NCBI GenBank assembly: GCA_002163245.1
Contig: MAAL01000025.1
Span: 248,001-312,000 of the forward strand
Source of the DNA: Gammaproteobacteria bacterium 42_54_T18
GTDB lineage: Bacteria > Pseudomonadota > Gammaproteobacteria > Pseudomonadales > Ketobacteraceae
Length of the DNA: 64,000 nucleotides
Direction: 5' to 3'
A program made the translations under genes and the position numbers. This document shows positions 47,985-54,875 of the stretch, in pieces (position 1 is the stretch's first letter; each line of letters starts with the position of its first letter). A model generated the notes under the pieces. It ran no database searches and was not told the DNA's origin. It saw only the letters and a program-made list of their open reading frames with translations.

Positions 47985-49211
47985 ATGACAAACATACAAA
48001 GCAACCAGCAAGAAGATGATGATGACTCCATTGACACAGACTTAATGGAAGACTTTTTTTATGACTTCAAAGAAGCACATCAAAACTGTGAATCTATCCT
48101 CATCAACTTGGAACATGACCCAAGTAACAAGGAATTACTCAACGGCCTATTTCGCTCAGTCCACACCATCAAGGGCAACTTAGTTTACGTTGGCTTAAAG
48201 GACCTTACGCCTTTAATTCAAAGTATGGAGGACTTACTGGACGCTATTCGTTCCGAACAGATTCTTTATGATAACTTATTAAGTGATGTTATTTTGCTTG
48301 CAATGGATAAGACAAAGCAAATGGTTCAAGCTAAACAAGCTAAAACCTTCTCGCCTATTATTTCAGACGAACAGCTGTTACTCCTCTGCCAGAACATTAG
48401 CAGCATTGTTGAGGTTGAAGGCGACACTCGAACAGAATATATAAGAAATGCCATCATTTCGCTGGATCCGAGTACTCATATATTTGATGATTCTCAACCG
48501 GCAACACCAAAGCTGGGCAAAAAGGTGCCAAAAGGTTTTGATGCACCTAGAAAAACACCTACATTGCAAACAACCATCCCTACGCCAATTCAACAGCCAT
48601 TAAGTGTTATCGAAATTCTACAACATCATCATATTGAAATTGACGAGGATATTATATTTTTTGAAAGCATTGCCTCGCCTATGGAAAACCGCTCCCTTTA
48701 TTGGAAAGGCCGAACTGCACGTTTGCTAACATTGGCTTTGGATATGAATAAAAAAGCCGGCGATCCAGTTGAACCGGCTCAGCTCGTAGCTGCAATTTTA
48801 TTGCATGACATTGGCATGGCCTTTTTACCGCTCCCATTACTTCACAAAGCGGGTTCATTTAACGAAGAAGAGCGTAATGCACTTTTTAGACACACTGAAT
48901 TAGCAAGCCAGTTGTTAAACCAATCATCAAAATGGGAGCAAGCAGCGACCATAGTGCTCCAACATCACGAACGAGTTGACGGCTCCGGTTACCCAAAACG
49001 ACTGACGGGCATCGACATTTGCCATGGGGCAAAAATACTGAGTATAGTTGACACCTTTGACGCAAGAACCCACGAACGAGCCTATAACACACGCTTAAAG
49101 CGTCCCTTTATTCGCGCGGTAATAGAGGTAAATAACTGCAAAGGCTCTCAATTTGACGCTAGCTGGGTTGAGGTTTTTAATGAAATAACAAGAGCTTCTC
49201 GCAACAATTAA
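47985..49211 (+). CDS. Hpt and HD-GYP domain protein
   Basis: A 408-residue signalling protein that joins two modules. The N-terminal Hpt domain has the phospho-acceptor H60 in HTIKGN. The C-terminal HD-GYP phosphodiesterase domain has the intact pair HD at 274-275, QHHERVDGSGYP around 326-337 and IVDTFDA at 354-360. A Pro/Gln-rich linker (about 170-205) joins them. The fusion suggests that phosphorelay input controls c-di-GMP breakdown; this is inference, as no kinase is adjacent. A 17-bp-stem terminator follows the gene. Confidence 0.88.
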   Translation: MTNIQSNQQEDDDDSIDTDLMEDFFYDFKEAHQNCESILINLEHDPSNKELLNGLFRSVHTIKGNLVYVGLKDLTPLIQSMEDLLDAIRSEQILYDNLLSDVILLAMDKTKQMVQAKQAKTFSPIISDEQLLLLCQNISSIVEVEGDTRTEYIRNAIISLDPSTHIFDDSQPATPKLGKKVPKGFDAPRKTPTLQTTIPTPIQQPLSVIEILQHHHIEIDEDIIFFESIASPMENRSLYWKGRTARLLTLALDMNKKAGDPVEPAQLVAAILLHDIGMAFLPLPLLHKAGSFNEEERNALFRHTELASQLLNQSSKWEQAATIVLQHHERVDGSGYPKRLTGIDICHGAKILSIVDTFDARTHERAYNTRLKRPFIRAVIEVNNCKGSQFDASWVEVFNEITRASRNN

Positions 49212-52595: not shown

Positions 52596-53633
52596 TTAGT
52601 CCTCACCGCCATCAGCAGCAGAGCCAGATTCTACTTCATCCTTTTCATTTTTATCAACAATATAGTTTTCATCACAATCATCCACCGATGAATAGGGAAC
52701 CACCTGATTTCTACCCTTTTCTTTTGCATGATACAAGCAAGCATCCGATGCGGAAATCATCGCCTCTACATCTGAAAAAATTGGGCTATATTGAGCAACC
52801 CCTAAACTTGCCGCCGTTGATATTTCACCATCCGAAAAAGGTACCGGCGTACCTGCAATCGCTGCACGAATTCTCTCAGCTACAACGCACGCCCCCTCCT
52901 CGTCAGTATTAACAAGCACAATACCAAATTCTTCGCCGCCATAACGACCCGCAATATCATTCTCTCGTAAGGATTCCCTAATAATCCTAGCGACTTGAAT
53001 CAAAACAGCATCGCCACCCAAATGACCATAAGTGTCATTTGTTATTTTAAAATGGTCAAGGTCAAACATAATCAATGATAAAGGTGAACCATAACGAGCC
53101 GCACGACTAAATTCTTCATTTAACCGCGACTGCCAATGACTACGATTAAACAGCTGGGTTAACCCATCCACCCGACTAACCATTTCCAGTTTAGTCATAG
53201 CGGCTTTATGCATCGTTTGATATATAGCAGTATCGGTCACATCAAATACCACCACACACACAGACGTCACAGTGCCGTCGTCATCCTTTATTGGCATCAA
53301 AGTCAAATCTTGACACATGTATTCCAAACCACTTGTCACCGGACGATTATGATTGAATGCAAACAAATGTGGCCGCTGTTCCCAAGAGGTAAAAGCAAAA
53401 TTTTTCAACATAAAAACACTGCTGAGTTTTTTTGCCAACCAACGTTTAGGTAAATCAGGAAAACAATCGAATAGGTTTTTGCCAACAACATCCTCTGGAT
53501 TTAAGCCACTATTTGTGGACATGAAATTATTCCAAAGTTGTATTTCTTGGGCTTCATTAACAATGAATACGCCGACATTCACTCGATCGACAATAAACTC
53601 TAACAGCTCTTTAGAGGGAGCAAATTCTGACAC
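52596..53633 (-). CDS. PAS-GGDEF diguanylate cyclase
   Basis: A 345-residue cyclase that makes cyclic di-GMP. The PAS-like sensory domain spans about residues 8-130, with NVGVFIVNEAQEIQLWN and VVGKNLFDCFPDLPKRW. A GGDEF domain spans about 150-315 with the active motif GGEEF (232-236). The inhibitory I-site RxxD is R223-D226, exactly five residues before it, so product feedback is expected. No TM helix is present. Its start touches the end of the CheC-like gene (no gap), in a RR-CheC-GGDEF unit. Confidence 0.9.
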   Translation of the reverse strand: MSEFAPSKELLEFIVDRVNVGVFIVNEAQEIQLWNNFMSTNSGLNPEDVVGKNLFDCFPDLPKRWLAKKLSSVFMLKNFAFTSWEQRPHLFAFNHNRPVTSGLEYMCQDLTLMPIKDDDGTVTSVCVVVFDVTDTAIYQTMHKAAMTKLEMVSRVDGLTQLFNRSHWQSRLNEEFSRAARYGSPLSLIMFDLDHFKITNDTYGHLGGDAVLIQVARIIRESLRENDIAGRYGGEEFGIVLVNTDEEGACVVAERIRAAIAGTPVPFSDGEISTAASLGVAQYSPIFSDVEAMISASDACLYHAKEKGRNQVVPYSSVDDCDENYIVDKNEKDEVESGSAADGGED

Positions 53634-54269
53634 TTATAAGTCTTCCAGCAGTTTATCCAGCTCTTCCTTCATCACCAAAATAGATTCACCTGGCATCAAT
53701 AAGAACATGGTGCAGTTAAACGAACGATCCTCAAGAGTATATGAGATCTCCACTAACAGCGCATGACCCCAGCTCAATTTCTCATGCTCTAATAAATCTG
53801 CAATAGGTACATGCTGACCTAAAATTGTAGGTGGCGAGTAAGCCAGCTCTGTTTCGATCTGCTCACCAATACCATTTAGGCATGCGCCATTTAGAACATT
53901 GGTCACATCCATTAACAACTCTTTTTCAGCAGCATCCGTAAGCTCTTCATCATAAGCAAGCAGATCAGCCAATTCTTTAAAAGAAGTATCATTAAAAACA
54001 ACGATTGCCTCTCCTCGAATTCCTTTTCCATCCTCAATATGATAAAACCCCTGACTTACTCCAGAAACTTTGGAGCCAACACCACCAACCAAACCTTCTA
54101 GCTCTGTACCAAGATCCTCTTTGGCGACTAATCGAATTCTAGGCACTGAGAGGTGGATAAACACCTCTAAAAAACGTGCTAACGAATCACCCGCCTGCCC
54201 CATAGCAACATTGACAACTTCCTGTAAGCAGTCCCGTTGATCTTCTGTTAACGCTAATTGCTCACTCAT
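53634..54269 (-). CDS. CheC-like CheY-P phosphatase
   Basis: A 211-residue protein with two copies of the CheC/FliY phosphatase motif [D/S]xxxExxN(x22)P. The first is D13-E17-N20-P43, exactly spaced. The second reads E117, D121, N124, P147, with Asp in place of Glu, so one site is canonical and the other variant. GGVGSKVSGVSQGFYHIEDG lies in the middle. This family dephosphorylates receiver domains. It overlaps the response regulator by 4 bp and abuts the GGDEF gene, so the receiver is the likely substrate (inference). Confidence 0.75.
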   Translation of the reverse strand: MSEQLALTEDQRDCLQEVVNVAMGQAGDSLARFLEVFIHLSVPRIRLVAKEDLGTELEGLVGGVGSKVSGVSQGFYHIEDGKGIRGEAIVVFNDTSFKELADLLAYDEELTDAAEKELLMDVTNVLNGACLNGIGEQIETELAYSPPTILGQHVPIADLLEHEKLSWGHALLVEISYTLEDRSFNCTMFLLMPGESILVMKEELDKLLEDL

Positions 54270-54631
54270 AGCAGACCGTACTTATTCAGAACTTCAGTTA
54301 ATTTTTTGCCATCTATAGGCTTCTTCACAAAATCCAGCGCCCCAAGCCCCATCACACGTTCTCGAGCCTCAGGCTGGATATCGGCGGAAATAACAATAAT
54401 GATTGACTTGTGCCCTTCCGCTTTAACTTTCTCTAGAACACCATATCCATCGAGCTCAGGCATGGTTAGGTCTAAAAATACCATTTCACCCTTACCAGAA
54501 CGAATCGCTTCAATCCCCTCCACACCATTTGTTGCTAGTGTGATATCGACATCCCACCCGTCCGGTATTGCCCGTTTAACTTGCTTTCGGGCCATTGCTG
54601 AGTCATCGCATATAAGCAATGGAATCGACAT
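54266..54631 (-). CDS. CheY-like single-domain response regulator
   Basis: A 121-residue stand-alone receiver. The acidic pocket is D9/D10, the phosphorylation site is D54 in VFLDLTMPELDG, the switch Ser is S82 in VISADIQPEAR, and the conserved lysine is K103 or K104 in FVKKP. There is no output domain, so it acts by protein binding. Its stop overlaps the CheC-like start by 4 bp (ATGA). It is the first gene of the unit with cheC-like and GGDEF genes. No histidine kinase is near. Confidence 0.92.
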   Translation of the reverse strand: MSIPLLICDDSAMARKQVKRAIPDGWDVDITLATNGVEGIEAIRSGKGEMVFLDLTMPELDGYGVLEKVKAEGHKSIIIVISADIQPEARERVMGLGALDFVKKPIDGKKLTEVLNKYGLL

Positions 54632-54834: not shown

Positions 54835-54875
54835 AACACAAAAGCCCCGACATGTTATGCCGGGGCTTTTGTGTT
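54835..54875 (-). terminator. Rho-independent terminator after the fumarase gene
   Basis: A 15-bp perfect outer stem, AACACAAAAGCCCCG (54835-54849) with CGGGGCTTTTGTGTT (54861-54875), plus three inner pairs and a small loop. It starts 14 bp past the fumarase stop on the minus strand. Confidence 0.9.

Follow-up and report, generated by a model that had tools for sequence, protein, structure and literature searches.

A conserved gene module of a receiver, a CheC-type phosphatase and a PAS domain with exchanged outputs, and a possible adaptor role for CheC

Classical CheC has two active sites and CheX has one, and in chemotaxis CheC is established to bind CheD, in a manner coupled to receiver phosphorylation. 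The CheC/CheX/FliY phosphatases (such as T. maritima and B. subtilis CheC) are the nearest described counterparts of a protein encoded in the window, the whole 64,000-nucleotide stretch of Gammaproteobacteria bacterium 42_54_T18 that was analyzed. Fold, a first site of the form D-x3-E-x2-N...P and a presumed CheY-like target are shared with these phosphatases, but unlike the T. maritima and B. subtilis proteins the window protein is encoded outside a chemotaxis operon, and in its second site E is replaced by D. Its apparent partner, unlike that of chemotaxis CheC, is a PAS protein, and the chemotaxis system of the host has CheZ. The CheC-CheD complex (PDB 2f9z) is comparable in that CheC couples receiver phosphorylation to a second bound protein, which for PAS is a proposal; in place of the deamidase CheD, however, a PAS-GGDEF protein, a PAS-kinase or a lone PAS is found. 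In PleD and WspR (REC-GGDEF) a receiver controls a GGDEF domain, as is proposed here, with I-site feedback, but there receiver and GGDEF are fused, whereas the window encodes receiver, phosphatase and PAS-cyclase as separate proteins, and the enzyme can be exchanged.

In Shewanella, CheY3 has diguanylate cyclases as interaction partners (PMC7666153), so that a coupling of receiver to cyclase is plausible, but CheY3 is the chemotaxis CheY, and neither a CheC nor a dedicated PAS is described there, while the window module has both. P. syringae Psyr_0886 / PSPTO1039 has been named as a response regulator with a CheC domain (PMC2222644, PMC5654926). Likened by domains, its architecture resembles the fused form of P. 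asturiensis pCC1524; unlike the window genes, Psyr_0886 / PSPTO1039 is fused, and the P. asturiensis counterpart is followed by a PAS-only gene. A description of the REC-CheC-PAS module was not found in the open-access literature. VC1215/VC1216, considered as a candidate, was not confirmed by a literature search.

All three genes of the window locus are on the minus strand. A single-domain CheY-like receiver (54266..54631; 121 aa, ATG start; Response_reg, E = 2.9e-21) overlaps by 4 bp a CheC/CheX-type phosphatase-like protein (53634..54269; 211 aa, ATG start; CheX PF13690, 3.9e-7), the stop codon of which is followed directly, with a 0-bp junction, by the GTG start of a predicted PAS-GGDEF diguanylate cyclase (52596..53633; 345 aa; GGDEF, 3.1e-45; PAS_9, 7.9e-9). 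Domains of the trio were called with Pfam and NCBIfam, and coordinates and junctions were as the sequence-only reading had given them. An intrinsic terminator (54835..54875, minus strand; 19-bp stem, 3-nt loop, T tract) is located between a fumarase gene and the trio. As this strong terminator separates fumarase from the receiver, the trio probably forms a separate transcription unit, and co-transcription with fumarase is unlikely. A sigma-70 promoter scan of the locus returned nothing convincing. Fumarase and SLT were rejected as functional partners, since their conservation was confined to the window's own family. The module is present as a single copy in the host genome (6.66 Mb, 199 contigs). 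A Hpt-HD-GYP gene (47985-49211, plus strand) lies a few genes beyond the trio and possibly encodes a c-di-GMP phosphodiesterase with a phosphotransfer domain; close relatives (L003-L009) have homologs of it in the corresponding region, and one more, at 29% identity, lies near the trio at another locus (L068).

Within the receiver, D9, D10, D54, S82, D84, Q86 and K104 are present and were invariant or nearly so across 58 aligned relatives. D54 is the phosphoacceptor predicted from these conserved residues, and S82-Q86 carries a module signature, S-[AG]-D-[IV]-Q. The DD pair, phosphoacceptor D, T/S and K of single-domain response regulators are all in place and Response_reg is the only domain, in agreement with the initial description of a receiver that has no output domain.

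For the CheC-type protein, sequence matches in the PDB included 4hyn (CheC/FliN fusion protein, FliY; 3.7e-8) and 1xkr (CheC; 8.8e-4). The AF2 single-chain model of a fused REC-CheC relative, L016 (pLDDT 79.8, pTM 0.71), matched 2f9z, 1xkr, 3qta and 4hyn with E values of 7e-10 to 2e-8, Foldseek placing it with T. maritima CheC (2f9z/1xkr), and it also matched receiver structures. The first site, D13-x3-E17-x2-N20 with P43 (54141..54233, minus strand), is canonical by residue conservation; E17 and N20 did not vary in any of the copies compared, whatever the output type, and P43 hardly did. The CheC/CheX/FliY family is characterized by one or more intact D/S-x3-E-x2-N catalytic helices with a downstream P, and this site provides one. 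Residue comparison indicated that the second site (E117, D121 replacing E, N124; 53898..53921, minus strand) is altered, so that the window protein lacks the two canonical sites of a classical CheC, having D121/N124 instead. A two-site CheC had been proposed from sequence; the canonical first site was upheld, but the second carries D121 for E, as it does in most GGDEF types, and many relatives lack N124. In kinase-type modules the second site is canonical (E121 in 25/29, N124 in 29/29), in split GGDEF types it is mostly D/N (30/41 and 37/41), and N124 is kept in 26/53 fused GGDEF types and 4/12 fused PAS-only types.

The third protein starts with a module-specific PAS domain (residues 1-138; 53220..53633, minus strand), delimited by a custom profile search. 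On the host's own genome this profile gave 5.5e-64 for the window protein and 1.4e-4 for the second-best match; across 27 genomes that have no close CheC relatives it gave no full-length match, and the short generic matches there reached 4.6e-6 at best. A solved relative of the PAS is PDB 3mxq (9.1e-38), listed as 'Sensor protein', which we take to be the PAS of a Vibrio cholerae sensor kinase. A loop of the form WEQRPxLFxFxxxRPxTxxxxxMxQ (residues 84-108; 53310..53384, minus strand) is a candidate docking surface on the basis of conservation; its WEQRP...RPxT...MxQ pattern hardly varies between GGDEF, PAS-only and close kinase types, and the AF2 model gives the loop little regular secondary structure, at moderate confidence (pLDDT about 63-76). 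Distant kinase types share with this PAS only a shorter core and the general motif WN.WM...FP; that all kinase types have a homologous PAS is accordingly likely, but less well supported. A LOV or heme PAS was weakly ruled out, as conserved Cys/His were not noticed in the PAS alignment. The GGDEF domain follows (residues 149-312; 52698..53189, minus strand; TIGR00254, 3e-50). Conservation marks its I-site RxxD (R223-D226) and GGEEF active site (232-236) at 52926..52967 (minus strand), and both, as first noted from the letters, were invariant in 55 sequences, which is consistent with the GGDEF family. The structure nearest to this domain was 3ign, a GGDEF with c-di-GMP (1.2e-69), and the AF2 single-chain model of the whole protein (mean pLDDT 83.6, pTM 0.58) matched PA0861 and GGDEF structures.

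The CheC protein was found in 14/15 genomes of the host family; at class level 65/369 genomes matched the single CheC sequence, and at phylum level 100/398 matched the CheC profile. From fetched flanks, 156 distinct CheC copies were classified with custom profiles, 154 of which had enough flank. The receiver was fused to, or immediately upstream of, CheC in 139/154, a PAS-bearing gene was immediately downstream in 141/154, and both were present in 128; with the window's own family excluded, the respective counts were 126/141 (receiver) and 129/141 (PAS), all of which are descriptive given uneven phylogenetic sampling. Conservation of the order, proposed at the outset as a check on the locus, therefore extends widely through the Gammaproteobacteria and beyond. 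The genes flanking the trio vary between lineages, and recurrence of the trio amid unrelated flanks rules out chance adjacency. The REC-CheC-PAS module is very likely real.

Downstream of CheC, 97 copies had a PAS-GGDEF or longer GGDEF form, 29 had a PAS-histidine kinase and 16 a lone PAS. HisKA/HATPase, GGDEF and GAF-GGDEF outputs were confirmed with Pfam, and GGDEF-EAL cases came from translations. As the third gene is variable and the PAS is retained, REC, CheC and PAS form the constant unit, and the cyclase is an output that can be swapped. In a quickly built tree of CheC, with many open forks and a few long branches, the difference between fused and split REC needed 2 changes, which implies few origins of the fusion, and that between GGDEF, histidine kinase and PAS-only outputs at least 9, counted without direction. 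The PAS-only form arose repeatedly within GGDEF clades of this tree, and PAS was retained through the output changes. In Vibrio coralliilyticus p319 the row reads REC-HDOD, REC, CheC, PAS-kinase, REC-EAL and REC-HD-GYP, then a gene annotated Hpt. In plasmid pCC1524 of P. asturiensis and in Vibrio sp. HDW18 an annotated response regulator, most of the length of which is matched by a fused REC-CheC query, is followed by a PAS-only gene. At the level of sequence the module, its conservation, its output swaps and its catalytic motifs are established. Seven loci of one lineage (L070, L071, L074, L075, L078, L079, L085) have the trio followed by M23-type peptidase-like and anhMurNAc kinase-like genes, as assigned by eye.

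Distance correlations were calculated for 87 GGDEF-type loci, 69 of which remained after thinning to <80% CheC identity. CheC and PAS distances correlated at 0.81, with a partial correlation given the other domains of 0.59 (95% of subsamples 0.52-0.66), which is not in itself proof of a CheC-PAS contact. The remaining partial correlations were REC-CheC 0.36, PAS-GGDEF 0.25, REC-PAS 0.18, REC-GGDEF 0.18 and CheC-GGDEF 0.09. Within the fused clade CheC-GGDEF distances were nearly uncorrelated (0.14) and CheC-PAS distances correlated at 0.77. With the cyclase optional, the PAS nearly constant and CheC, not the receiver, co-varying most with PAS, the data point to CheC as a bridge to PAS. The best reading of these comparisons, drawing on co-varying distances, exchanged domains and a single loss, is that CheC bridges the phospho-receiver to the PAS domain and so gates the attached enzyme, to which we assign a probability of about 0.5.

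Under this reading, a cellular kinase would place phosphate on receiver D54; in kinase-type relatives the phosphorylating enzyme is probably the PAS-kinase itself. The phospho-receiver would dock at the invariant first site of CheC and be dephosphorylated there too, and CheC would bind the N-terminal PAS of the third protein, probably via the WEQRP...RPxT loop. Phosphorylation of the receiver would then change the PAS-linked enzyme, here the output of the diguanylate cyclase, on which c-di-GMP may feed back through the I-site. By analogy with CheC and CheD in Bacillus and Thermotoga, CheC would act as both a phospho-gated adaptor and a timer. Contact between CheC and PAS, the direction of cyclase control and the kinase are inferences in this scheme. 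More tentatively, at a little under even odds, the module may represent a widespread undescribed phosphoswitch, in which a CheC-type phospho-gated adaptor stands between a dedicated receiver and an equally dedicated PAS subtype, the PAS-linked enzyme is exchanged (histidine kinase, diguanylate cyclase or nothing) and the second site is altered where there is no kinase. If so, CheC-type phosphatases, beyond their part in chemotaxis, would have a widespread second function where two-component and c-di-GMP signalling meet, and the kinase-type, cyclase-type and PAS-only modules would be a natural series for output change with a constant interface. As the three window proteins are small, their domain matches include no membrane segment and the PAS has a solved relative (3mxq), the model is directly testable.

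Several observations count against CheC as the bridge. The contrast in co-variation was much smaller among 26 split loci (CheC-PAS 0.46 vs. REC-GGDEF 0.43), the output enzyme of PAS-only modules is not obvious, and Psyr_0886, the one REC-CheC protein assayed and by its domains a presumed relative, was not labelled detectably by BphP1 (PMC5654926). The arrangement first suggested for the locus, in which the phospho-receiver directly binds and controls the PAS-GGDEF cyclase and CheC merely resets it by dephosphorylation, appears unlikely. The invariant catalytic residues of the first site, the REC-PAS distance correlation of 0.67 and the binding of diguanylate cyclases by Shewanella CheY3 are in its favor, but its partial correlations (REC-PAS and REC-GGDEF) are low against that of CheC-PAS, and receiver and CheC are kept in PAS-only modules that have no cyclase. 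As originally stated it is unsupported, since the cyclase is optional (a kinase in 29, nothing in 16) and CheC co-varies most with PAS.

PAS domains are often sensory, and PAS could instead be the input, sensing a ligand or redox state and controlling the CheC phosphatase; receiver phosphorylation would then be the main output, acting on another target, with the cyclase a side branch. The strength of the CheC-PAS co-variation and the repeated loss of GGDEF from proteins that retain PAS would fit this equally improbable arrangement. However, every GGDEF domain compared keeps GGEEF and the I-site unchanged, which suggests a selected cyclase output, and the conserved Cys/His that mark a flavin-adduct or heme pocket were not seen in PAS.

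The loss event that bears on CheC as a bridge comes from one genome (G002) of the host's genus. Its locus L034 has REC and CheC, and a PAS-GGDEF match is absent from the 1.5 kb downstream. Compared with the window, its REC is 93% identical and its CheC 61%, and the CheC changes include M23I, E87Q and G128E, three positions that hardly vary elsewhere. This single case, a possible natural loss experiment, reads as relaxed selection on CheC after loss of its partner. The same genome (L035) and another of the genus (G001, L036) have a second, divergent locus of REC, two tandem CheC and a PAS-bearing gene.

Inspection by eye of the ORFs between 48 and 60 kb showed no MCP, CheA or CheW, which bears out the reported absence of chemoreceptors, kinase and adaptor nearby; for the kinase this changes in the kinase-type relatives, which hold a PAS-histidine kinase in the PAS-GGDEF slot. 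In the host genome a CheZ gene adjoins cheA on another contig. As CheZ is situated beside the chemotaxis CheA elsewhere, the module CheC is probably not the chemotaxis phosphatase of the host; a plain chemotaxis operon at the locus was rejected on the same grounds, and a role other than that of textbook chemotaxis, as had been surmised, is probable. A further alternative, that the module is a chemotaxis accessory, with CheA phosphorylating the receiver and the trio serving as a phosphate sink or a motor-to-c-di-GMP link, is highly improbable. It would agree with the distribution of CheA, found in 40/40 module-positive genomes and 42/80 negatives (36/47 of the negatives of at least 2.3 Mb by hand count, P = 7e-4; at flagellar-type length, 39/40 vs. 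25/47, P = 1e-6), a lead only, as this co-occurrence is confounded by a motile way of life, by the size of the genomes and by common ancestry. It would also agree with a plasmid of Nostoc sp. C052, where a REC-CheX-PAS kinase set is divergent from an adjoining cheA/cheW/mcp cluster; this set suggests that the kinase-type module reaches Cyanobacteria. Against it, che genes were not seen near the window trio, and kinase-type modules carry their own kinase. In V. cholerae, the CheX-family protein VC0377 was mutated in a motility suppressor (PMC8789113).
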